Of a stretch of 64,000 nucleotides of DNA, positions 8,332-61,500 are shown piece after piece. A program made the translations under genes and the position numbers. Every line of letters starts with the position of its first letter. Positions within the stretch are counted from its first letter, which is position 1. The notes below the pieces were generated by a model. It was not told the origin of the DNA. It saw only the letters and a list, made by a program, of their open reading frames with translations, and did not search any database. Origin of the DNA: a virus; the IMG/VR virus record IMGVR_UViG_3300046787_000390, positions 62,001 through 126,000 of that record; one strand, 5' to 3'.

Positions 8332-9330
8332 ATGGCATCATTAGCAGAAATTCGCGCACGTTTACAGGCAGCAGACAACAAACAAGGTGGTAATCAAACA
8401 GGCGGTGATCGCAGCATCTACCCGCACTGGAATATGGAAGAAGGCCAATCAGCTACATTACGCTTCCTCCCCGATGGTAACAACAAAAACACATTTTTCT
8501 GGGTAGAACGCCAGATGATTCGTTTGCCATTCGCTGGCATTAAAGGCGAGATGGATTCGAAACAAGTCATGGTGCAAGTACCATGCGTTGAAATGTGGGA
8601 ACCAAACTCATGCCCAATCTTGGCAGAAGTCCGCACCTGGTTCAAGGACAAGAGCCTTGAAGAAATGGGTCGCAAGTACTGGAAAAAGCGTTCATACATC
8701 ATGCAAGGTTTCGTTCGTGAAAACCCAATTGGTGATGACACTACACCGGACAATCCGATCCGCAAGTTTATCATTGGCCCACAGTTGTTCGCAACTATCA
8801 AGGCTGTGTTGATGGACCCAGAAACAGAAGAATTGCCAACAGACGCATTGCGTGGATTGGACTTCCGTATCAGCAAAACACAAAAAGGTGGATATGCTGA
8901 CTATTCTACTTCAAAGTGGAGCCGTAAGGAATCCGCACTTAATGAAGTTGAAGCAGCAGCAATTGAAGCACATGGATTGTTTGACTTGAACACATTCTTG
9001 CCAAAGCGCCCAGGCGATGTTGAGCTGCGTGTAATGAAGGAAATGTTTGAAGCATCAGTTGATGGTCAACCTTACGACACAGAGCGTTGGGGTCAATACT
9101 TCCGTCCAGCAGGTGTTAATGCACCTAGCGGTACCGGTGATGCAGAAGCAGCACCAGCGCCTGCTCCAGCAGCTCGTCCAGCAGCACCTGCTCCAGTAGC
9201 AGAAACTCCTGGTTGGGAAGATGAGCCAGCAGAAGCAACAGCACCAGTTGTTGTTAAGCCAGCGCCAGCCGCAGGCGGACAAAATGCTCAAGACATCTTG
9301 GCTATGATTCGTAGCCGTCAAGCTAAGTAA
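8332..9330 (+). CDS. gp32: Single-stranded DNA-binding protein, gp32-like
   Basis: The 332-residue protein matches the T4-type gp32 layout. It has a short helical N terminus (SLAEIRARLQ) for cooperative contacts, then a core with TLRFLPDG, FFWVERQ, VPCVEMWE and CPILAEVR (Cys 85 and 94), and KYWKKRSYIMQGFV. An Ala/Pro-rich linker (about 265-315) follows. The C terminus ends DILAMIRSRQAK and lacks a strongly acidic tip. The start follows AGGAG with good spacing. It coats ssDNA during replication and recombination together with UvsX and UvsY downstream. Confidence 0.9.
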   Translation: MASLAEIRARLQAADNKQGGNQTGGDRSIYPHWNMEEGQSATLRFLPDGNNKNTFFWVERQMIRLPFAGIKGEMDSKQVMVQVPCVEMWEPNSCPILAEVRTWFKDKSLEEMGRKYWKKRSYIMQGFVRENPIGDDTTPDNPIRKFIIGPQLFATIKAVLMDPETEELPTDALRGLDFRISKTQKGGYADYSTSKWSRKESALNEVEAAAIEAHGLFDLNTFLPKRPGDVELRVMKEMFEASVDGQPYDTERWGQYFRPAGVNAPSGTGDAEAAPAPAPAARPAAPAPVAETPGWEDEPAEATAPVVVKPAPAAGGQNAQDILAMIRSRQAK

Positions 9331-11139: not shown

Positions 11140-11894
11140 TGTTTTTTAGAAACCCTGAAGAAAGTCATGCTCACAGTTTAGAAACATTAAACTGGTTATA
11201 CGAGCATGACGATTTCATGATGAGTGTGAGTACACTTATTGACATAGGCTGCGGCGCTGGCCTAGATTTAGAATGGTGGGCAACACGTACTACTCGAGAT
11301 GAAAACCCCGAGCCACTAAACATTAAATGTGTAGGCTTAGACTTAGTAAACACTCCGACAGTGGCTAAGCAGTACGCTAACATTACATATCAACGTAATG
11401 ACTTTGAAACACAAATACATACACCTAAAAAAGAAAAGTATGATGTACTATGGTGTCACGACAGTTTTCAGTATGCACTAAATCCACTCAGTACATTAAA
11501 ACTCTGGCATTCTGTGGCCGCACCTAATGCAATGCTAGCATTGATAGTTCCGCAGACAACAAACATTGAATACCGGAAACTATCATTTACGCAGCCATCT
11601 GGCTGCTACTATCATTACACCCTTGTTAATCTCATGCACATGTTAGCCGTTAGTGGTTGGGATTGCAATGCCGGATTCTTTAAGAAATCTGCTAACGATC
11701 CTTGGTTGCATGTTGTGGTATACAAAAGCGATCAAGAACCAATGGATCCAAAAACATCCTGGTACCAATTGGCAGACACTGGGCTGCTACCGAAGTCTGC
11801 AATGGATAGTATAAATCGATACGGGTTTATAAATCAAAACGACCTTGTATTGCCATGGCTAGATAAAAGTTTAACTTGGTATGGGCAGCAATGA
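11139..11894 (+). CDS. Class I SAM-dependent methyltransferase
   Basis: LIDIGCGAGLDLEWW at about residues 27-41 is SAM motif I. VGLDLV and YDVLWCHDSFQYALNP follow as motifs II and IV. It has 251 residues and starts by TAATG overlap with uvsY. It is the first gene of the sugar island and its last bases overlap the first GT-B-like paralogue, which suggests small-molecule or glycan methylation. No NPPY motif is present, so DNA amino-methylation is less likely. Confidence 0.75.
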   Translation: MFFRNPEESHAHSLETLNWLYEHDDFMMSVSTLIDIGCGAGLDLEWWATRTTRDENPEPLNIKCVGLDLVNTPTVAKQYANITYQRNDFETQIHTPKKEKYDVLWCHDSFQYALNPLSTLKLWHSVAAPNAMLALIVPQTTNIEYRKLSFTQPSGCYYHYTLVNLMHMLAVSGWDCNAGFFKKSANDPWLHVVVYKSDQEPMDPKTSWYQLADTGLLPKSAMDSINRYGFINQNDLVLPWLDKSLTWYGQQ

Positions 11895-12673
11895 AATACG
11901 CTTATGCTCGTGACATGCCAGGGGAGCATACTAAGTGGTCGCTTACTCCCTGGCTGAAAAAGGGTTTAAAGGTATTTGATACAGTTAGACAAATACCCGA
12001 CAGCTACATTTTAATTGCAAGTCATTATGCACCATGGTGGTCCCCGTTAAAAGAATACATTGCTGAACTCCGTCCTTACATTGAGATTGAATACGGATAC
12101 TGGGGACCAGATACTCCTCGACGAGAAACTCGTAGGGTAACTTATAATGGACATCATAATATGGACATGTGCCCAGTTCCATATAGCAGGGCACATTTGT
12201 TTCCTACTCCAACTCACAATACTTGGCGAACTACTCCAGGTGAGTATGTGTTGGCAATCCAGCCAGTTGAATCTGTACTCACTGAACGTACTGGCGAGAG
12301 TATGGAACAATTCAGACAGCGTATTACTAACTGTATTAGTCCCTATTGGAACGGACCTATCAAGTGGCGCAAAAAAACAGGCGCAAAGTTTGCTAGATTT
12401 GAGTCATTCCAAGAGCAAGTTGCTAACGCTTACGCAGTAGTCGGTGAGCGAACTATGGCATGTGTAGAGTCATGTTTACTGGGTGTTCCTGCATACACAG
12501 TAGACAAATCAATGACATCATTATTAATGGGTGATGTTAGTAATCTGGCTAACCCGCAACGCCCTGATCGTGCAGCATGGTGGGAACATATCTGTTGGAG
12601 TCAGTTTAACAGAGTAGAATTTAATACCACTGCTCCTGCAGATTTAGTAGAACAGTATCAAATTCACCGATAA
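11891..12673 (+). CDS. GT-B-like family protein, paralogue 1 (most diverged)
   Basis: The 260-residue protein shares the C-terminal plan of five other genes here: AVVGERTMACVESCLLGVPAYTVD, then WWEHICWSQFN near the end. This S-x-x-x-x-E-x-x-x-x-G-x-P pattern resembles the nucleotide-sugar-binding domain of GT-B and KpsC/KpsS-type capsule transferases. In place of the VRPHP segment of other copies it has WRKKTG, so activity may differ. ATGA overlap couples it to the methyltransferase. Confidence 0.6.
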   Translation: MKYAYARDMPGEHTKWSLTPWLKKGLKVFDTVRQIPDSYILIASHYAPWWSPLKEYIAELRPYIEIEYGYWGPDTPRRETRRVTYNGHHNMDMCPVPYSRAHLFPTPTHNTWRTTPGEYVLAIQPVESVLTERTGESMEQFRQRITNCISPYWNGPIKWRKKTGAKFARFESFQEQVANAYAVVGERTMACVESCLLGVPAYTVDKSMTSLLMGDVSNLANPQRPDRAAWWEHICWSQFNRVEFNTTAPADLVEQYQIHR

Positions 12674-12676
12674 ATA
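12669..12676 (+). promoter_or_regulatory. Late-type promoter GATAAATA
   Basis: GATAAATA spans the upstream stop codon and ends five bases before the ATG at 12682. The predicted transcript would begin at the start codon itself. Confidence 0.55.
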
Positions 12677-12681
12677 TCGGC

Positions 12682-13437
12682 ATGAAGATTGTTATAGTTA
12701 CTGGGGGATTTGATCCCTTGCATTCTGGCCACCTGGCATATTTCAAAGCAGCAAAAGCACTAGGCGACAAATTAATTGTTGGCGTAAATTCTGATGAATG
12801 GTTGACCCGTAAAAAAGGTCGCCCGTTTATGCCAATGCACGAGAGAGTTGCATTAGTTAGTGCAATTGGGATAGTAGACGAAGTTGTTACTTATAATGAC
12901 GATGATGGATCTAGCTGTGATGCAATTCGTGTAGTTAAATCTCAATACCCAACTGCACACATTATCTTTGCCAACGGCGGAGATAGAACAAAAGAAAACA
13001 TTCCCGAGATGGTGTTTGATGATGTAGAATTTGCATTTGGGATTGGCGGTTTTAACAAAGCTAACTCTAGTTCATGGATTTTACAAGAATGGAAATCGCC
13101 CAAGACAGAACGTGCATGGGGCTATTATCGTGTGCTACATGAAGTAGGTTCTTGCACAAAATTAAAAGAACTCACGGTCGAGCCGGGCAAGAGCTTGAGT
13201 ATGCAACAGCATCATAAAAGAAGTGAATTCTGGTTTGTGGCCTCAGGAGAAGCAACAGTTTATACATTAGCTTCATCGGGTAAACAAAATCTAATAGGAA
13301 AATTTAGCAAGCATCAGAGTGTTTGGATTAGTAGAACACAATGGCACATGCTACAAAACGATACAGAGCAGCCATTGAAGCTGATCGAAATACAATATGG
13401 CGATCAATGTGTAGAAGAGGACATTGAACGAAAATGA
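12682..13437 (+). CDS. Cytidylyltransferase-like domain fused to a cupin
   Basis: Residues 1-135 form a nucleotidyltransferase of the RfaE2/TagD type, with GGFDPLHSGH (HxGH motif) at residues 8-17 and VNSDEWLTRKKGRP. Residues about 150-250 form a cupin with VEPGKSLSMQQHHKRSEFWF (metal-type HH..E) and a second strand block QWHMLQN. The fusion fits activation of a sugar phosphate to an NDP-sugar with the cupin acting as isomerase, epimerase or sensor, feeding the neighbouring transferases. The exact sugar is unknown. Confidence 0.8.
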   Translation: MKIVIVTGGFDPLHSGHLAYFKAAKALGDKLIVGVNSDEWLTRKKGRPFMPMHERVALVSAIGIVDEVVTYNDDDGSSCDAIRVVKSQYPTAHIIFANGGDRTKENIPEMVFDDVEFAFGIGGFNKANSSSWILQEWKSPKTERAWGYYRVLHEVGSCTKLKELTVEPGKSLSMQQHHKRSEFWFVASGEATVYTLASSGKQNLIGKFSKHQSVWISRTQWHMLQNDTEQPLKLIEIQYGDQCVEEDIERK

Positions 13438-14126
13438 AACCAATCCCAATTTTTATCGGATACGATCCAAGAGAAGCAGTGGCGTATCATACATGCGCTA
13501 ACTCAATCATTAGACATGCATCAAAACCTGTTGCTATTATTCCCCTAGCACTTAACTTGTTTGAAGATTACAAAGAAACACACACTGACGGTAGCAATCA
13601 GTTTATCTATAGTCGTTTCCTTGTACCTCACTTGATGGAATACACAGGCAAAGCAATCTTTATCGACGGCGACATGATTGTAAGAGATGACATTGTAAAG
13701 CTATGGAATCTAACCGAAGGCCAAACTCACTGGGACGTTGCAGTAGTTAAACATGATTACAAGACTCGAATGACTGAAAAGTATCTTGGGTCAAAGAATG
13801 AAAACTACCCACGCAAGAACTGGTCGAGTGTTATTGTTTGGAACTGCTACACACACCCTAATCGCAAGTTAACACCTGAGTTTATTGAAAAATCTACAGG
13901 TGCAGAACTGCATCGTTTTACCTGGATCGACGATGATAGAATTATTGAGTTACCGATAGAGTGGAACTGGTTGCCTGATGAATTTGGGCCAAATTTAGAT
14001 GCCAAGTTATTGCATTACACATTGGGCACGCCGTGCTTTCATGAGTTTGCTGATACTCCGCAAGGCGACGAGTGGCATCGCGAACACATGCTTGCAGACT
14101 ATTGTGTACAGAGATCTACGTCATGA
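13434..14126 (+). CDS. Glycosyltransferase (GT8-like, DxD)
   Basis: The N terminus IPIFIGYDPREAVAYHTC and AIFIDGDMIV (DxD near residue 79) match GT-A, GT8-like transferases. LLHYTLGTPCFHEF near the C terminus resembles the second metal-binding His segment. The length is 230 residues. ATGA overlap with the cytidylyltransferase gene indicates coupled translation and a shared pathway. Confidence 0.75.
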   Translation: MKPIPIFIGYDPREAVAYHTCANSIIRHASKPVAIIPLALNLFEDYKETHTDGSNQFIYSRFLVPHLMEYTGKAIFIDGDMIVRDDIVKLWNLTEGQTHWDVAVVKHDYKTRMTEKYLGSKNENYPRKNWSSVIVWNCYTHPNRKLTPEFIEKSTGAELHRFTWIDDDRIIELPIEWNWLPDEFGPNLDAKLLHYTLGTPCFHEFADTPQGDEWHREHMLADYCVQRSTS

Positions 14127-14917
14127 CAGTTCATTGTATTGATCGCAAAGGTAATAACATGGAGGTCAAAGACCGCCAATCTGCATTTACTCATAGATTT
14201 GCTCAGGGATGCAACGGAATTAACACAAGTCTTCAGTCAGCAATGCTAGCCCCACTGAGTGAACCGTGGTGTATCAGAGGAATGAAATTTGCCGCAGCAG
14301 TACAACAGTGTTGGGAAAACGGCAGAACATTCTATTACATTGACAATGGTTATTTTGGTAATGTAACAGGAAAGAAGTGGTTTAGAATTATTAAAAATCA
14401 CAGCCACGATATACGATCTATTATTGCTAGAGATCGCAAAAGACTTGACCAATGCACAATAACATTGAAACCTGTGACTAAAGGTAAGACCATACTGATT
14501 GCCCCGCCTAGTCTGAAAAGTCTAAGTCTATGGAACATGGATCCTGAACAATGGGTAAGCGAAACAATAGCAGAAATTAAAAAACACACAGATCGTCCAA
14601 TTGAAATTAGATTAAAACGCCCCAGAACTGACCGTCTCAAAGAAGATACAATGGAAGAAGCACTGGATAGAAATGTTCATTGCTTAGTAACATATAATAG
14701 TGTGGCAGCAGTAGAAGCAGTGATGCTTGGCAAGCCCGCTATTTGTCTTGGTCCTAATGCAGCCGGTGTAGTAAGTTCAACTTCACTAAGTGAAATTGAG
14801 AATCCAAAATATCCCGATGCCGATCTAAGAGAAGCTTGGTTGAGACATTTGAGTTATAGTCAATTTACATTCGACGAAATGAGCAACGGAACAGCCTGGG
14901 GAATACTCAATGGCTAA
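14123..14917 (+). CDS. GT-B-like family protein, paralogue 2
   Basis: This 264-residue copy has FYYIDNGYFG, then TILIAPP, TDRPIEIRLKRP, VTYNSVAAVEAVMLGKPAICLGP and WLRHLSYSQFTFDEM in the order shared by the family. The segment NSxAAxEAxxxGxP is the presumed donor-nucleotide loop. The start at 14123 overlaps the previous stop by ATGA. Glycosyl or glycerophosphate transfer is inferred from resemblance to capsule-type GT-B proteins. Confidence 0.65.
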   Translation: MTVHCIDRKGNNMEVKDRQSAFTHRFAQGCNGINTSLQSAMLAPLSEPWCIRGMKFAAAVQQCWENGRTFYYIDNGYFGNVTGKKWFRIIKNHSHDIRSIIARDRKRLDQCTITLKPVTKGKTILIAPPSLKSLSLWNMDPEQWVSETIAEIKKHTDRPIEIRLKRPRTDRLKEDTMEEALDRNVHCLVTYNSVAAVEAVMLGKPAICLGPNAAGVVSSTSLSEIENPKYPDADLREAWLRHLSYSQFTFDEMSNGTAWGILNG

Positions 14918-15704
14918 TAATCCTACAATGTTAGGATATGCCAAGAAGGACAAATGGGTCGGATCGTTTGTTGAACATTTAGGCGGGCGCATGGCCACAA
15001 TGGAAGAAATATATGCCAACAGCACAATTCCAATGGCATTTTCTGGTATTAGTAAATCTGCTGCCAAGACCCAAGCTGAAAAACATAATTTAGATTACTG
15101 GTATATTGATACAGGATATCTAGGTAATGGCAGATTTAAAACTTGGTTTAGAATTACTAAAAATGGATTCCAAGTAACTGCACCTATACAAGAAAAACCC
15201 AATGATAGATTAACTAAACTAAGGATCAATAGAAAGCAAATTCGTCGCGGCAGTAAAATAATGGTTGTTCCTATTGATCCCAAGGTTGCAAGTGGCTATC
15301 AAATATCAGACCCCGACACTTGGCTACATCAAACCATTGCTACAATTAAAACTTACACAGACAGGGAAATTGTTGTTCGTCACCGTCCTGCCAGTAGAGA
15401 AGTTCGTGTTACTACAGATACTTTTGTAGATGCATTACACCAGGATATTAGTGCAGTAGTAACTTGGGCAAGCAACTGCGGAGTAGAAGCAGTGCAGCAT
15501 GGTATTCCTGTTGTTAGCTTAGGACCTAGTGCATGTATCCAAGTCAGTGGAAAGATAGAACAGATAGACGATCTGCCGGCGTTGGACTTGGATCGCAGCG
15601 AGGCCTGGTTACGTTGGCTAAGTTACAATCAGTTTACGCAACTAGAAATCGAAACTGGTATCGCCTGGAATATATTACAAGAAAATTATGAACGTATTAA
15701 TTAA
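14910..15704 (+). CDS. GT-B-like family protein, paralogue 3
   Basis: The 264-residue copy has WYIDTGYLG, KIMVVPID, YTDREIVVRHRP, VTWASNCGVEAVQHGIPVVSLGP and WLRWLSYNQFTQLEIETG. It keeps VRHRP and the E-x-x-x-x-G-x-P loop and looks intact. It overlaps the previous gene by 8 bases and the next by 17, so the copies are packed as one transcription unit. Confidence 0.65.
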   Translation: MANNPTMLGYAKKDKWVGSFVEHLGGRMATMEEIYANSTIPMAFSGISKSAAKTQAEKHNLDYWYIDTGYLGNGRFKTWFRITKNGFQVTAPIQEKPNDRLTKLRINRKQIRRGSKIMVVPIDPKVASGYQISDPDTWLHQTIATIKTYTDREIVVRHRPASREVRVTTDTFVDALHQDISAVVTWASNCGVEAVQHGIPVVSLGPSACIQVSGKIEQIDDLPALDLDRSEAWLRWLSYNQFTQLEIETGIAWNILQENYERIN

Positions 15705-16776
15705 TGCCGACGAATGGATGGCCCCGTGGCACAAGCAGTTTGTCATTGAATATTTAAAACAACAACCATGGGAAGTTAACTGGTTTGAAACTAACAAGTA
15801 TATTCGTGACTGCAAACAAGAATATAAAAACTCAGGGTTGATAACAGTTGATTTTAATCGTGTAAATTATTTGTTAAAGCAAGATCTTGCAGAATTTAGA
15901 AACGACATAAACACTGCGTACAAGAAAACATTCCAAACACAAAAAGCAACTACTATAGATAGAATTTCTCAACTTGGATTGAGCAATCATGAGATTATTA
16001 CTACCTACCTTGATAACAAAGAACCCGGCTTTGCTAAATCACTAGCATATCAGTTGAGCAGCACAGTGAAGTGGATAATAGATTCCAAGGACGCAGAAAG
16101 CAATCGGCCGTTCTTTATTAGAAACACACTTAACAACGAAGACCTTCTTAAAAAATGTTTAGAGGAACAAACAAAATTTTGGTTTGTTGATACAGGGTAC
16201 ACAAACTTTCTCGAAGATAAAAACAAAAAGTGGCACAGACTAGTGAAAGATCATATTCACCACGGCGCTCAAACAAAGAACTTTCCAACTGATCGCTTGG
16301 ACTTATTTCCTAAACTGCCAAAGGGCTGGCGAAGAAAAGGATCCACTATACTTGTAATAGAAGGTAGCCCCACACATTATCAAATGAGGGGCACTACACT
16401 AGAAGCATGGCGGGAACATATCACACAGGAAATCCGCAAGTATAGCGATCGAGAAATTGAGTTCCGTCCCAAGGAACTTAGTCGAAAGAATCGTGTGTCA
16501 GTTTACGAAACACTACGAGGAACTAAAGAGTATTATTGTGTTGTGAGCGATTCGAGTGCCGCAGCAGTTGAAGCCATTTGGACAGGTACTCCGGTTATCA
16601 CATTAGAACGACATATTACTAATTCTGTGTCTAGAAATACGCTAGCAGACATTGACAATTTGTTTCGGTCAGATATAGAACGCTGGCTAACAATGTTGTC
16701 TTATAGTCAATACACGTTTGATGAGTTATGCAACGGTACAGCAGTTGGAATAGTCAAGGAGTATTTTGATGCATGA
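15688..16776 (+). CDS. GT-B-like family protein, paralogue 4 (long form)
   Basis: At 362 residues this is the longest copy. The first 130 residues are an extra N-terminal region (INADEWMAPWHKQF...), followed by FWFVDTGYTN, TILVIEGSP, YSDREIEFRPKE, VSDSSAAAVEAIWTGTPVITLE and WLTMLSYSQYTFDEL. The extra region may be an acceptor-binding half that shorter copies lack or have minimised. Confidence 0.65.
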   Translation: MNVLINADEWMAPWHKQFVIEYLKQQPWEVNWFETNKYIRDCKQEYKNSGLITVDFNRVNYLLKQDLAEFRNDINTAYKKTFQTQKATTIDRISQLGLSNHEIITTYLDNKEPGFAKSLAYQLSSTVKWIIDSKDAESNRPFFIRNTLNNEDLLKKCLEEQTKFWFVDTGYTNFLEDKNKKWHRLVKDHIHHGAQTKNFPTDRLDLFPKLPKGWRRKGSTILVIEGSPTHYQMRGTTLEAWREHITQEIRKYSDREIEFRPKELSRKNRVSVYETLRGTKEYYCVVSDSSAAAVEAIWTGTPVITLERHITNSVSRNTLADIDNLFRSDIERWLTMLSYSQYTFDELCNGTAVGIVKEYFDA

Positions 16777-17656
16777 CGTAGTTGTTTACCTTAGCAGCTT
16801 GCCACGCATTGCTGATCGTGATCGCAAAGTAGAAGTGTTAAAAGCATTTGCTAACGGGGGTAATCACTTGGGATTAAAAACTTTGCTACAAGATAGAACA
16901 CAAGTTGTGCCTGCTAGGTTGGGCGTTATATTAGGATGGGTTGGCCAAAGTATCAAAGGACCGCACATACAGTTGCGCAAGGATGTTATTAACACACAAA
17001 AGGTAATGAGCATTGACGGTAGTTGTTTCAAGTTTGCAGATCCAACAAGTATTTTTCTGCGTTATAGTTTAGATGGCGTGTATTACAATACAAACGAATA
17101 CGCAAACAAGAACAGCAGTCCGGATAAATGGAATCAGGTAAAGCAACGTTTAAATCTTGAACTGAAGCCTTGGCGTAGCAACGGTAATCATATACTGGTA
17201 TGCGGGCAACGCGATGGCGGCTGGTCAATGAAAGGCGTTGACATGAACCAATGGGTACTAGAAACAGTTCAACAGATTAGAAAAGCTACTGACAGGCCTA
17301 TTGTAGTACGAGCACACCCAAAGAACCCAGTTAATGCCAAGTTGTTTAGACAATTTGTTAACGTTCAGATGAGTACCAATCAATCACTACAGCAAGATTT
17401 GTCTAATGCCTGGGCTAGTGTGTTTTTTAATAGCTCAAGTTGTGTAGCTAGTGTGTTATTGGGCGTTCCTGTGTTTGCAACAGACTCTGATTGTGTTGCT
17501 TGGCAGATAGCAACCCAGGATATAACACAAATAGAAAAGCCACTGACTCCTGTTAGGGAACAATGGCTTTGGGATTTATCAGCAGCCCACTGGACTGACG
17601 AAGAAAGCAGAGCTGGGTTAATTTACAACAAGTTTAAACTGTTGTTACCAACCTAA
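16769..17656 (+). CDS. GT-B-like family protein, paralogue 5
   Basis: This 295-residue copy has HILVCGQRDGGW, ATDRPIVVRAHPKNP, VFFNSSSCVASVLLGVPVFATD and WLWDLSAAHWTDEES. VRAHP is the best match to the capsule-type xRPHP motif. AAGGAGT precedes ATG 16769 by five bases. The 3' end overlaps the convergent FkbM gene by 12 bases. Confidence 0.65.
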   Translation: MHDVVVYLSSLPRIADRDRKVEVLKAFANGGNHLGLKTLLQDRTQVVPARLGVILGWVGQSIKGPHIQLRKDVINTQKVMSIDGSCFKFADPTSIFLRYSLDGVYYNTNEYANKNSSPDKWNQVKQRLNLELKPWRSNGNHILVCGQRDGGWSMKGVDMNQWVLETVQQIRKATDRPIVVRAHPKNPVNAKLFRQFVNVQMSTNQSLQQDLSNAWASVFFNSSSCVASVLLGVPVFATDSDCVAWQIATQDITQIEKPLTPVREQWLWDLSAAHWTDEESRAGLIYNKFKLLLPT

Positions 17657-18289
17657 CACGTAGTCATTCTTAACTGACGTTAAGATCTTTGCGCCCCAAC
17701 TTACTAATGTATCTAGAGCTTGCGCAGTGTCAGTATGTCCCACGTCCTTGTGCTTTTTGTGTTCTACAACCATGATAGGTTTATACTTTAAGATTGTTTC
17801 TTTAGCGCCACGCAGGATAGTATTTTCGTAACCTTCACAGTCAATCTTGATGTAATTAATTTGTGGTAAATTCAACCCGTCTAATCTATACATTGGGATA
17901 GAGCCTGCGCCAATACTTGAAGTATCAACGTGACTGTGTCCTGTATTTTCAGCAGTGATAATCATGTTAATTTGCGTATCACTTTCTCCTAATGCACAAG
18001 CACGAACTTCAAAGTTAGATGCAACTACATTTTTAAGCAAACAATCTCTAAAGTCTGCAACTGGTTCAAACGCAATCACTTGATCAAATGATTCGCATAG
18101 ATCCTTGCTCCAGAGCCCAACGTTGGCGCCAATATCTAGTGCAAGTCCTTTACGATCGCAAAGCCCTATGCTAATTTTACGAACAGGTTCTTGATAAACT
18201 GGGCCACCGCCCTTTTTAATATTCTTTTCTAACATTCCTGCGAAATGTGTGTCTTGGTCCGGGAACCACCATCCATGTGCTTGATACAT
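17645..18289 (-). CDS. FkbM-family methyltransferase
   Basis: The 214-residue protein has LALDIGANVGLWS (motif I), AFEPV and INYIKIDCEGYENTILRGA, the signature of FkbM O-methyltransferases that cap sugars. It is on the minus strand, follows the next gene by a TAATG overlap, and converges with GT-B paralogue 5. Sugar O-methylation is likely from family and context. Confidence 0.85.
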   Translation of the reverse strand: MYQAHGWWFPDQDTHFAGMLEKNIKKGGGPVYQEPVRKISIGLCDRKGLALDIGANVGLWSKDLCESFDQVIAFEPVADFRDCLLKNVVASNFEVRACALGESDTQINMIITAENTGHSHVDTSSIGAGSIPMYRLDGLNLPQINYIKIDCEGYENTILRGAKETILKYKPIMVVEHKKHKDVGHTDTAQALDTLVSWGAKILTSVKNDYVLGW

Positions 18290-19113
18290 TATTTGCGTCC
18301 TTTGCTTAATACTTTTTGCCAGTACGGGTGGTCTTGATGTAGAACAACTTCTTTTGGCTTTGAATGACCTTGCACTTTGCGATCACCTTTAACATGATCC
18401 ATATACTTGCCTAACTCTGAATTAATAAACGGATGCCCTGCAAGTCCTTTGTCTTCCCAGCTAGGATTTAAGTTATGGAACTTGCATCGGCTTTGAATTT
18501 GTTTTCTTAACACATCAAAAATATAGCTATCGTGCCATTCACGTTCTTGAAAAATTGCATCGTTGTTATACATGTTTACAAAGTCACGAATGAACTGTCT
18601 ACATTCAGGCGAATCTAAATTGTAAGCGACCCAGCCGCACTCTGAATGATATTTTTCTCCACGGCCTAAAAAGCTGACCATAGTGTTTGAAGGACAAACT
18701 GTGCCTAGTGCTTGCATGGTCACTGGGGTATGTGTAACTGAATCGGCATCAATCCATATCATCCATCCAGAATCAATCATGTCTGCTGCTACAGACTTAG
18801 CAAATACTTTGTAGCAAAAACGAACAGCGTCCCAGCGGAATTGCTTTTTAGGATTAAACACATCGGGTGGTCCTGCCTTGCCGTGCGCGAGAGGATTGTC
18901 CTTGTGGCGCTCAACAAATGCTCGAAGATCTGGGCTAGCAGCTAATATATCAACAACCTTTGTGTTTGGTCTTGTGGTTCGGGGTGTGCAGTTTTCTGCT
19001 AGCACAATTAAGTCGACTTCTGCTGGCCAGAATTGCTCGAATGTGTCAATCATGCGTTGGCCATATTGTTCTAACCCGGCCTGGTGAAATGTGGTAATTA
19101 CTGTATATTTCAT
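18289..19113 (-). CDS. Glycosyltransferase-like protein (DxD)
   Basis: The 274-residue protein starts MKYTVITTFHQAGLEQYG and has GWMIWIDADSVTH (DxD), WVAYNLDSPE, and HDSYIFDVL, matching GT-A-like phage and bacterial transferases that work with FkbM partners. It is the first gene of a two-gene minus-strand unit inside the glycan island. Confidence 0.7.
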   Translation of the reverse strand: MKYTVITTFHQAGLEQYGQRMIDTFEQFWPAEVDLIVLAENCTPRTTRPNTKVVDILAASPDLRAFVERHKDNPLAHGKAGPPDVFNPKKQFRWDAVRFCYKVFAKSVAADMIDSGWMIWIDADSVTHTPVTMQALGTVCPSNTMVSFLGRGEKYHSECGWVAYNLDSPECRQFIRDFVNMYNNDAIFQEREWHDSYIFDVLRKQIQSRCKFHNLNPSWEDKGLAGHPFINSELGKYMDHVKGDRKVQGHSKPKEVVLHQDHPYWQKVLSKGRK

Positions 19114-19119
19114 GTGAGA

Positions 19120-19125
19120 TATTTA
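19120..19125 (-). promoter_or_regulatory. Late-type promoter (minus) CTAAATA
   Basis: Reading the minus strand, CTAAATATCTCAC runs straight into the ATG at 19113. Six bases separate the motif and the start codon, so the transcript would be leaderless. Confidence 0.5.
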
Positions 19126-19128
19126 GTA

Positions 19129-19926
19129 ATGAAAACAGTGACCTATTTTCCTTTGCAGTGTGCCCTAAACTCAGGGCCTGTTATTTCTGCGGTTATGGAA
19201 TCCTTGCAACACGCCGGATTCCAAATTGAGACCAGCAGTTACGATGCCGATGTGGCGGTAATCTGGTCAGTGCTTTGGAATGGTCGCATGATTGCCAATC
19301 GAGATGTATATCAGTATTACCGCAGCAAAGGACGTCCTGTTGTGTGTATCGAAGTTGGTGCGCTAGATCGAGGACGTACCTGGAAGCTAGCACTCAATCA
19401 TGTTAACGCATTGGGTTACTATGGGCATCAAACTAATTTAGATTTTGATCGTCCCAAAAAATTAGGAATTTCGTTAAAAACTAACTCACTTGGGCACAAT
19501 AGGATTCTTGTAGCAGGGCAACACAATCGTAGTTTGCAACTGGAAGGAGTGGATCAAGAAGCCTGGTATGTGCAAAAAATAAATGAAGTTGCTGCTGGCA
19601 AACAAGTTGTAGTAAGACCACATCCTAGGTGCCCGATGGACCGTACCCGTTTTCCAAAAAATGTTGTATGGGAACAACCACGTAAGCTAGCAGACACATA
19701 TGATAGCTTTGATATGCACTGGGACTTTGATGCAGTCATAAATTATAATTCAGGGCCGGGAATACAAGCAACAATTGCAGGTGTGCTAGCAGTTGTCGAC
19801 ACTTCTAGCTTGGCATACAATGTAGTAGATAGAGAGCAGTGGTTAATTGAAATATGCCACACTGAATACACACTAGAAGAAATAGGACAAGGAACATGGG
19901 TAAGAAGGATAGGCTTAGAGCCTTAG
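19129..19926 (+). CDS. GT-B-like family protein, paralogue 6
   Basis: The 265-residue copy starts at the ATG at 19129, giving MKTVTYFPLQ, 15 bases from the divergent minus-strand start. It has VCIEVGALDRG, RILVAGQHN, KQVVVRPHPRCP, VINYNSGPGIQATIAGVLAVVD and WLIEICHTEYTLEEI. VRPHP is canonical for capsule-type GT-B proteins. The usual E-x-x-x-x-G-x-P has become Q-A-T-I-A-G-V-L, so it may be diverged in donor binding. Confidence 0.65.
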   Translation: MKTVTYFPLQCALNSGPVISAVMESLQHAGFQIETSSYDADVAVIWSVLWNGRMIANRDVYQYYRSKGRPVVCIEVGALDRGRTWKLALNHVNALGYYGHQTNLDFDRPKKLGISLKTNSLGHNRILVAGQHNRSLQLEGVDQEAWYVQKINEVAAGKQVVVRPHPRCPMDRTRFPKNVVWEQPRKLADTYDSFDMHWDFDAVINYNSGPGIQATIAGVLAVVDTSSLAYNVVDREQWLIEICHTEYTLEEIGQGTWVRRIGLEP

Positions 19927-20657
19927 CAGAAGCAGCCGGGCAACCGCCGCAAGGTCCGGTTCAGTGTGCTTGTTTAATACACGGCACTGCCTACTCATGG
20001 GATTACGTAGATCGCTTGTATAACATGCTGAGTCGTAATCTATCCCGTGGTATACAATTGCATGTTTATACAGAACCAGACAGAAAAGTTCCTGCTCATA
20101 TGGTCAAGCATGAATTAAAGGACCTTGGCGTATCGGGACCTAAAAAGGCCTGGTGGTACAAATTGCAACTGTTTAATCACAAGCATTATCAAGGCCCGTT
20201 GCTGTATCTTGACTTAGACACAGTAATTACTGATAATATAGATTGGATTACACATCAGCCGTTGGAATATTTCTGGGCACCTCGGGATTTTAAACGACTT
20301 TGGCGCCCTAACCATACTGGTATTAATAGTAGTGTAATGTGGTGGGACACATCAAAATTCAATGACGTATGGCAAACATTCCGCAATCAAGAGTTTCCAT
20401 TGCTACAACGCAGGTACCCGGGCGACCAGGACTTTTTAAGTGATGTAATAACACAAGATAGGCGTAGATTTCTCGACGAACGTTTGATACGTAGTTGGAA
20501 ATGGGAATGTTTAGATGGCGGCTGGGACTTTAAACACAGAAAACATTACGAACCCGATACAGGGACACGACTTGGCGGTGCAGGAGTCCTTGTTTTTCAC
20601 GGTAAACCAAACCCATGTCAAGTACAAGATCCAGTGATTTTACAGCATTGGAAATAA
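19896..20657 (+). CDS. Glycosyltransferase (DxD, GT8-like)
   Basis: GPLLYLDLDTVITDN (DxD near residue 103) and VLVFHGKPNPCQV near the C terminus are hallmarks of GT-A, GT8-like enzymes: DxD plus the His-containing loop. The length is 253 residues. It overlaps paralogue 6 by 31 bases and closes the sugar island. Confidence 0.75.
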   Translation: MGKKDRLRALAEAAGQPPQGPVQCACLIHGTAYSWDYVDRLYNMLSRNLSRGIQLHVYTEPDRKVPAHMVKHELKDLGVSGPKKAWWYKLQLFNHKHYQGPLLYLDLDTVITDNIDWITHQPLEYFWAPRDFKRLWRPNHTGINSSVMWWDTSKFNDVWQTFRNQEFPLLQRRYPGDQDFLSDVITQDRRRFLDERLIRSWKWECLDGGWDFKHRKHYEPDTGTRLGGAGVLVFHGKPNPCQVQDPVILQHWK

Positions 20658-57043: not shown

Positions 57044-57072
57044 TTGACCAGAATTTACCGATTTGCTATAAT
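57044..57072 (+). promoter_or_regulatory. Early sigma70 promoter (conserved spacer)
   Basis: AAACGG then TTGACC (57044-57049), spacer AGAATTTACCGATTTGC and TATAAT (57067-57072), then ATACACATAAAG. Confidence 0.87.
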
Positions 57073-57102: not shown

Positions 57103-57525
57103 ATGACAATGCCCGCAGGACGATATTATGTTGGTGATCTGTGCTATGTTATGCACCCTGAATGGGACGAAGTTTGTAATTTGTTCTTCCCGGCTAATCA
57201 TCCACCACGTGGTGTTGAAGGTGAGTTCACTCTCAAAGACGGTCGCCGCTTTGCTAGTTTTGCCACAGCATATGGTGACGGTGGTTACCGTAGCAACATT
57301 GGTACTAGCCATTCAGTGGACGCTGGGATTATTGGTTGCATCCTTGTTGAAGACATTCGCGACGATGAAGCCAACGACATGGAAACGCTGGGTGCTATTG
57401 TAGAGTTCACAAAGCCTTTTGAAGTGTCGTCAGATGGACGTGTGCTAGTGTTTGGACATGTTGAAATTGACACTGGCTTCGACGATGACGAAGAAGAACA
57501 CGATTGTTTTGATGACGAGGAGTAA
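57103..57525 (+). CDS. Conserved-type early protein, acidic tail
   Basis: The 140-residue protein (PAGRYYVGDLCYVMHPEWDE..., then GEFTLKDGRRFASFATAYGD) resembles a small beta-sandwich family common in phages. It ends in a very acidic tail (DDDEEEHDCFDDEE). Unknown role. Confidence 0.7.
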   Translation: MTMPAGRYYVGDLCYVMHPEWDEVCNLFFPANHPPRGVEGEFTLKDGRRFASFATAYGDGGYRSNIGTSHSVDAGIIGCILVEDIRDDEANDMETLGAIVEFTKPFEVSSDGRVLVFGHVEIDTGFDDDEEEHDCFDDEE

Positions 57526-59619: not shown

Positions 59620-59942
59620 ACTGGCACGAAGCGATTGATGAGATGTATAAGGGTAATGTGGTCCGATACATTGGCACAGAAAACGGTCCTGTATGGACCG
59701 ATAAGGGCTGGTCATTTTGTATGTGCCGTGGTGTGATATTTCGTTATAGAGATAGCAAGCCGGCATATCGTTCAGATGGTGCTATGGTATATGATCCAGA
59801 CTTTAGATACGAACTAACAGGCGAAACTGTGGATACAAGGTATTGGCCCACAAAGCCAACGATTGTAAAAACACCTAGAGTGTTAGACAAAGAAACTGTG
59901 GCCAAGTTAGGCTACAGTCGTATAGGAAGGAACAATGTATGA
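59616..59942 (+). CDS. Small early protein
   Basis: A 108-residue protein (MNWHEAIDEMYKGNVVRYIG...) with PDFRYELTGETVDTRYW and a basic end. The N-terminal helix-strand (EAI..M..G..VR..G) recalls DUF2829 (Tad2-like) small phage proteins, but the rest is too different for a firm call. Unknown. Confidence 0.6.
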   Translation: MNWHEAIDEMYKGNVVRYIGTENGPVWTDKGWSFCMCRGVIFRYRDSKPAYRSDGAMVYDPDFRYELTGETVDTRYWPTKPTIVKTPRVLDKETVAKLGYSRIGRNNV

Positions 59943-60157
59943 ACAGACGATTAAAAGAACTTGCCGCAGATGCCGGATATCCAGATTATATGACATATGG
60001 TCAAGACAAGGTCCTAGAAAAGTTCGCCGAGTTGATCATTCAGGAATGTGCTGGCATCTGTGACCATCAAGGCCGTGCAGGATGGAATGATGACCGTAAG
60101 GCTCAAGCACGCCTGGATCGTGATTTAATTAAACAACATTTCGGAGTTGAAGAATGA
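59939..60157 (+). CDS. EKFAELI-family small protein, copy 1
   Basis: A 72-residue protein (NRRLKELAADAGYPDYM...). LEKFAELIIQECAGICDHQ (helix with two Cys), and the end DLIKQHFGVEE, are repeated in the gene at 60493 and in part at 61246. The family is widespread in T4-type phages and of unknown function. Confidence 0.7.
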   Translation: MNRRLKELAADAGYPDYMTYGQDKVLEKFAELIIQECAGICDHQGRAGWNDDRKAQARLDRDLIKQHFGVEE

Positions 60158-60483
60158 GACTCATGCTAGGCACTAAAGAACGTCCAAGTTTGCTTGTCAA
60201 TGTTGAGCAAGAGTATAGTCCCACACACTTTGACTTTTGGGTAGTCAACGGTGCCTGGGATGGCACCTACTACAATGGTTACGTCACTGTGCATCATCCT
60301 TATAACCCACATTCCAGTCTTGACAAAGTAGAGATTTTGTGCAATAATCAAGACCGACTGCGGTCAAGCGACTGGTCGGGTGGCTACCAAGAAGTGTTCA
60401 ACAACTTCCATGACGAAAACTATGTAGCACCTAAGCCTAAGCCAGTAGTATATGACGATATGGACGATGATATCCCGTTTTAA
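60154..60483 (+). CDS. Small protein with bacterial SSB-like C-terminal tip
   Basis: A 109-residue protein with a small beta domain (WVVNGAWDGTYYNGYVTVHHP) and a C-terminal linker KPKPVVYDDMDDDIPF. The last six residues DDDIPF are identical to the tip of proteobacterial SSB, which docks many host DNA-repair and replication proteins. The phage's gp32 lacks this tip, so this may be a decoy or recruiter. It does not contain a visible OB-fold. Confidence 0.75.
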   Translation: MRLMLGTKERPSLLVNVEQEYSPTHFDFWVVNGAWDGTYYNGYVTVHHPYNPHSSLDKVEILCNNQDRLRSSDWSGGYQEVFNNFHDENYVAPKPKPVVYDDMDDDIPF

Positions 60484-60492
60484 GGAAACAAA

Positions 60493-60756
60493 ATGAAAAA
60501 ACAATTATTAAAATTATTCAACGAGGCTGGGTTCCATCGGCCTGAAATAGAACGACTGAGCGTTGAACACAAGTTTGAAAAATTCGCTGAGTTGATTGTT
60601 GCTGAATGTATGTCAATGTGCGAAGAAACACAAGCTGGCTATTTTAAGCATCGCAAGGCCGCAGATGATTTTCAAGACAAGAATATCTATGCCGAAGGTG
60701 AAGCAGCATGTGATGTTATCAAATACAAGATGAAGAAACATTTTGGAGTTGAATGA
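60493..60756 (+). CDS. EKFAELI-family small protein, copy 2
   Basis: An 87-residue protein (KKQLLKLFNEAGFHRPEIER...). FEKFAELIVAECMSMCEE aligns with copy 1 and the end MKKHFGVE matches IKQHFGVEE. Tandem duplication with divergence is evident. AAGGAAA precedes the ATG. Confidence 0.7.
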   Translation: MKKQLLKLFNEAGFHRPEIERLSVEHKFEKFAELIVAECMSMCEETQAGYFKHRKAADDFQDKNIYAEGEAACDVIKYKMKKHFGVE

Positions 60757-61052: not shown

Positions 61053-61249
61053 GCAGAGAAGCAGAAAATACATTCAGAGCACTAAAGGATCAGCCTCCGG
61101 TGGAAACTCGCCCCATTTGGTGTTGGTTTGGATTCCACAAGTGGACAAAATACAGTGATCCTAAACGAAGTGCAGCTAGCATTTATGTTAGACAAGGTCG
61201 ATTCTGTGCAGCCTGCAATCAATACCACGAAAGAAAGTTTCACGAATGA
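61049..61249 (+). CDS. Small Cys/His protein
   Basis: A 66-residue protein with WCWFGFHKWTKY and FCAACNQYHERKFHE. The Cys pair and nearby His residues suggest zinc binding. ATGA overlaps at both ends. Unknown. Confidence 0.65.
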   Translation: MSREAENTFRALKDQPPVETRPIWCWFGFHKWTKYSDPKRSAASIYVRQGRFCAACNQYHERKFHE

Positions 61250-61500
61250 GCAAACGAATCCAAGAACTTGCAGATCAAGCAAAGAAAAATGTTCCACACG
61301 GACTTAGCCCAGACAAGTGGATTGAAGTTTACAACGAAAAGTTTGCCGAGCTGGTTGTAGAAGCAGTATTGGATCAAGTGAAAGAACGTGCGTACTACAC
61401 AGGAGACCGGGACTGGAGTGACGAAGTGGATCGTCCCTGGATTCAGTTAGAATTTGGCTACGGCTCACTAGCCGATGCAAAGAAAGGTATTTTTAAATGA
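61246..61500 (+). CDS. EKFAELI-family small protein, copy 3 (diverged)
   Basis: An 84-residue protein. SKRIQELADQAKK and NEKFAELVVEAVLDQVKE align with copies 1 and 2. The Cys pair and the HFGVE end are lost; instead it ends YGSLADAKKGIFK. Confidence 0.65.
   Translation: MSKRIQELADQAKKNVPHGLSPDKWIEVYNEKFAELVVEAVLDQVKERAYYTGDRDWSDEVDRPWIQLEFGYGSLADAKKGIFK

Follow-up and report, generated by a model that had tools for sequence, protein, structure and literature searches.

A small phage protein ending in the C-terminal tip of bacterial SSB as a likely mimic of the host docking tail

A small phage protein whose last six residues, DDDIPF, match the tip at the C-terminus of bacterial SSB is likely to be a free-standing mimic of that tip, docking early on the SSB-interacting proteins of the host. 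Binding of the tip to the pockets that receive the SSB C-terminus (SSB-Ct) is quite probable, and the retention of the tip in nearly all relatives found makes it likely that the virus captures or redirects host enzymes with it. In bacteria, more than 12 proteins of replication and repair dock on the SSB-Ct (PMC5872125), and E. coli does not survive its loss (PMC10164576). A preliminary description of this DNA had proposed that a phage protein other than the gp32-like one carries the docking tip of SSB, and this proposal is strongly supported: the tip is conserved, under purifying selection, present as a single copy per phage, and similar to a common SSB tail of the probable host group. Its further suggestion, that the protein might divert or recruit RecO, RecQ, PriA or exonuclease I, is a candidate role.

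The window, that is, the whole stretch of 64,000 nucleotides that was analysed, covers positions 62001-126000 of a virus record of 133,497 bases (IMG/VR IMGVR_UViG_3300046787_000390), and its relevant features are collected in Table 1. The C-terminus of the 109-residue protein is VVYDDMDDDIPF, reading YDDMDDDIPF as first described, and the DDDIPF-type tip pattern occurs only once in the entire record. The Pro/Lys linker described with it is correct for the window protein and fails as a family trait, the linker being variable in relatives. A Pfam search of the protein matched no family, including the gp32 core domain (PF08804), a PHROGs search returned only weak matches, which were taken as noise, and no relatives were found in the bacterial genomes searched. 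An SSB/OB-fold domain (PF00436) was detected neither by Pfam nor by the PDB fold search; the acidic C-terminal tip ending in IPF, a trait of the bacterial SSB family (PF00436), is present.

Table 1. Positions, in window coordinates, of the tip-protein gene, its parts and the features compared with it.
Feature	Position	Strand	Details
gp32-like ssDNA-binding protein, comparator	8332..9330	+	same phage, ends AMIRSRQAK
Putative sigma-70-type promoter, near-consensus TTGACC-17 nt-TATAAT	57044..57072	+	of the strong intergenic copies upstream, the one nearest to the gene run
Tip-protein gene	60154..60483	+	ATG start, 109 aa, TAA stop at 60481-60483
N-terminal domain, residues 1-85	60154..60408	+	acidic, predicted to have short helices and six beta strands, matches no family
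Linker, residues 86-103, HDENYVAPKPKPVVYDDM	60409..60462	+	model confidence drops towards the end; varies among relatives
SSB-type tip DDDIPF, residues 104-109	60463..60480	+	from translation, relatives and codon comparison

Conservation of the tip was assessed in viral contigs. A full-length query found 33 relatives there, every one of them tipped, and the full-length searches gave 43 relatives; one search pattern overlapped the tip, so the search was repeated with the N-terminal domain only, yielding 67 loci and 58 distinct proteins, of which 57 are complete and one is cut by a contig end. DDDI[P/A]F ends 54 of the 57 complete proteins (49 DDDIPF and five DDDIAF), which thereby keep the features of the SSB-Ct at the extreme C-terminus, namely the Asp run, the Ile and the terminal Phe, with Pro or Ala in the fifth place. 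The remaining three, which belong to the most diverged relatives, end in TDGIAF (L095), YDDIPF (L097) and VWHSFK (L096). Homologues lacking the tip, named beforehand as what would speak against a docking role, are thus absent at identities of at least about 45%; they do occur beyond that range, where these three proteins have a degraded or missing tip and the Acinetobacter-phage relatives are tip-less.

At the nucleotide level, 35 different 18-mers encode the tip across 56 tipped coding sequences, and pairwise comparison of these sequences counted 4318 synonymous against 255 non-synonymous codon differences, all 255 at the Pro/Ala position. The ten codons before the tip gave 1626 synonymous against 11595 non-synonymous differences in an ungapped comparison, in which indels inflate the non-synonymous count and the contrast with the tip nevertheless stays large. 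Judged from these coding sequences, the tip is under strong purifying selection at the amino-acid level, because its DNA spellings are many, nearly all of its change is synonymous and the adjoining linker is variable; by the same kind of evidence, it is not due to chance. The residues preceding the tip fall into tail classes (M, W, W with Ala, E and other), which change 26 times on a tree of the N-terminal domain, with many unresolved forks, which is close to the mean of 29.4 for shuffled labels. In one pair with support of 100/99 (L069, MDDDIPF; L070, WDDDIPF) the tail class differs and the tip is identical.

The tip is also specific to one gene in each phage. The 13 tipped phage records, 101-364 kb long, have exactly one tip site each, on the tip-protein gene, and three records with diverged relatives have none. 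The SSB family PF00436 was undetected in 17 phage records, many of which are fragments, while 10 of 14 control genomes were positive. Nine of the 17 records encode gp32-like proteins, and the seven tails read are all without the tip; the gp32-like protein of the window indeed ends in RSRQAK, as previously described. As a bacterial baseline, DDDIPF followed by a stop was present in 45 of 100 genomes from the order of a Limnohabitans genome, never more than once per genome, and all 32 of the tip copies read in this sample belong to SSB. Among the matches listed for viral contigs, 80 tip sites, a sample picked by the tip that gives no frequency, comprise 22 proteins that match E. coli SSB directly, 35 that cluster with those, and a remainder of non-SSB proteins, including SF2-type helicases. 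Non-SSB phage proteins ending in DDDIPF among the matches listed (L118, L138, L137, L142 and L154) include SF2-type helicases, a clamp-like protein, a gp32-like protein and a DnaB-like C-terminus, types that were read from sequence, with a PHROGs comparison for L142 only.

The residues adjoining the tip bear on the probable host. FDDMDDDIPF is the commonest SSB tail in the Limnohabitans-order sample (11/32) and also ends three relatives (L001, L018 and L036), while the window protein has YDDM. Scanning bacterial genomes for [FY]DDMDDDIPF gave at least 120 matches; the 80 listed are mostly Betaproteobacteria by title, together with some titled Proteobacteria only and one Brevundimonas MAG. SSB was confirmed for 74 of these 80, the others being mostly cut ORFs, and all complete tails among them read FDDM. 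Of 369 genomes of the class, one had a W-type tail (WDDDI[PA]F), and a match to host SSB was therefore rejected for this type. Because W-type tails are nearly absent from the sampled bacteria, likeness to SSB beyond the six-residue core is, as far as these tails tell, limited to part of the family. For the M-type members, one may reasonably suppose a freshwater betaproteobacterium as host.

The N-terminal domain that carries the tail was modelled with AlphaFold2 from 52 sequences (mean pLDDT 84.5 and pTM 0.71 for the whole protein, the last block being less confident), giving six strands plus short helices. Net charge is -6 over residues 1-90 with a pI of 5.1, and the family median is likewise -6; for comparison, the OB region of E. 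coli SSB has a net charge of +1 and a pI of 8.0. Binding of ssDNA by this acidic domain is therefore unlikely on present sequence data. Foldseek comparison of two models with the PDB gave nothing significant, an SH3/Tudor/PWWP-like fold was set aside as the PDB matches to it were weak, and kinship to PDB entries by sequence (best E 0.037) was judged insufficient. Against viral models, Foldseek found one uncultured phage protein, 90% identical, and weak matches in Achromobacter and Alteromonas phages. The uncharacterised protein TaPaz_131 of an Acinetobacter phage (QVW53912) has a homologous N-terminal domain (hhalign probability 96.8), but unlike the window protein it ends right after the domain, without the tip. 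Such distant Acinetobacter-phage relatives, keeping the domain without the tip, imply that the domain has a function of its own and that the tip was gained or lost separately.

The tip gene lies within a series of abutting plus-strand genes downstream of repeated near-consensus sigma-70-type promoters, and early expression is inferred from this run behind such a promoter. The repeated promoters (53912, 54216, 54583, 56234, 56615, 57044 and 63071, all on the plus strand) have a common sequence around TTGACC/TATAAT. No operon partner is conserved across relatives, in which the neighbours vary; the only frequent neighbour is a family of small proteins with a KFAEL[IV] motif, found at 34 loci in relatives and in three copies in the window, which flank the tip gene (59939-60157, 60493-60756 and 61246-61500). 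This setting fits an accessory early gene. The phage terminase is T4-type and closest to those of large Pseudomonas phages such as PA5oct (52% identity), and the same phage encodes a RecA-family protein, a primase, a helicase and recombinase-like proteins. Elsewhere in the window, at 11876-20657, several ORFs with shared C-terminal motifs of the approximate form W...LSYSQFT.E...G.A..I appear to be a cluster of glycan-related paralogues.

In the proposed mechanism, a small folded acidic domain would bear a flexible tail, and the six terminal residues of this tail would enter SSB-Ct pockets, with RecO, RecQ, PriA, exonuclease I, RecG, primase and Pol III chi as candidate partners. Made early, the protein would draw at least one of them off host SSB, and the N-terminal domain probably adds a second contact that chooses the partner. 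Lone SSB-Ct peptides bind weakly, so that a monomeric decoy would need either high expression or a second contact. In the pockets that receive the SSB-Ct, the terminal Phe is buried, its carboxylate is held by basic residues, and the Asp residues make contacts; without the Phe there is no binding, and RecG binds less well when the Pro is replaced by Ser (PMC10164576). The phage tip retains what binding requires: the Asp residues, the terminal Phe and the carboxylate of that Phe (PMC10164576, PMC5872125). Docking on host SSB-interacting proteins would thus be the simplest explanation, because the tip keeps the features that contact the pocket and selection acts on those very residues. Counting against a mimic are the five relatives ending in DDDIAF, altered at the Pro position at which Pro to Ser weakens RecG binding (PMC10164576), and the tip-less relatives, in which the domain must serve some purpose independent of the tip.

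The most serious competing explanation, although one we consider rather unlikely, is that the protein acts as an adaptor, its N-terminal domain binding the phage replication machinery (e.g. the gp32-like or another fork protein) while the tip brings host SSB-interacting proteins to phage DNA and so restores a docking point that gp32-coated DNA lacks. The tip-less tails of the seven gp32-like proteins read, among nine of 17 phage records with such a protein and none with a detected SSB, agree with this explanation, as does the strong conservation of the domain, which suggests a specific partner. However, the gene sits among variable small genes with no conserved neighbour tying it to replication genes, and a tip-less relative in G015 was found beside a gp32-like protein, 61% identical. 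Between capture of host enzymes in competition with SSB and their recruitment to phage DNA, capture is slightly favoured, because replication genes are not linked to the tip gene and the domain does not resemble one that binds DNA.

It is improbable that the partner of the tip is instead encoded by the phage and has an SSB-Ct-type pocket. Sak4 of phage HK620 does require the tail of its phage SSB (PMC5928155), and the present phage encodes a primase, a helicase and recombinase-like proteins, but no candidate partner was identified, and in part of the family the tail is like host SSB tails. Less probable still is that the protein itself binds ssDNA: it has the layout of SSB (domain, linker, tip), and two members have very weak matches (best E 0.21-0.28) to PHROGs annotated as single strand DNA binding protein, yet the domain is acidic, with the family median charge of -6 opposed to +1 in the OB domain of E. 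coli SSB, and sequence and fold searches gave no SSB/OB match; the domain charge and the missing OB match disfavour this reading. Generic acidic tails are common in phage proteins, as in the ORF at 57103-57525, which ends DDDEEEHDCFDDEE, but a chance or generic acidic C-terminus with no SSB-related role is practically negligible as an explanation when the six residues are exact in 54 of 57 relatives, with only synonymous change save Pro/Ala, and occur in one copy per phage.

If docking on host SSB-interacting proteins is correct, one small viral part would reach many host enzymes together, the SSB hub would be a target of phage takeover, and the protein would offer a natural SSB-Ct competitor to study. 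It would also bear on AbpAB and Retron-Eco8, defence systems reported to be triggered by phage SSB. A literature search, which covered few subscription journals, returned no report of a separate phage protein bearing an SSB-Ct tip; phage SSBs with SSB-type tails are already known (PMC5928155).

Several known systems can be set beside the tip protein. Bacterial SSB has the identical DDDIPF on a flexible linker, and the ten residues FDDMDDDIPF are common to some relatives and Burkholderiales SSB, whereas the carrier domain of the tip protein is acidic and has no detectable SSB/OB fold. The SSB of phage HK620, which ends in NDYPPF, is likewise a phage protein, and its tail is needed to bind a recombination protein; there, however, the tail sits on a true SSB and its partner is the phage protein Sak4, whereas here it sits on a small unrelated protein (PMC5928155). 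The RecBCD inhibitors gp5.9 and Abc2 are, according to the abstract describing them, also phage proteins acting against host genome maintenance, but their target is RecBCD, and SSB-tip mimicry is not mentioned in that abstract (PMC9836394). A further parallel is phrog_1811, a 73-residue family of marine phages that is again a small, tipped, non-SSB protein, unrelated in sequence. With a tip-less query, 24 of its 26 distinct proteins end in [DE]DDIPF (14 DDDIPF, 10 EDDIPF) and one in DDSIPF, at loci L395-L446, which include relatives of gp31 of Pelagibacter phage HTVC033P (L451:2501-2722); two cyanophage relatives that were read are without the tip. Selection on this tip is less well shown, because 30 tipped sequences have no more than 4 DNA spellings. 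Tentatively, free-standing SSB-Ct proteins may have arisen repeatedly in phages, on domains unrelated to one another and partly matched to the host group, as a general means of capturing the SSB hub early in infection.
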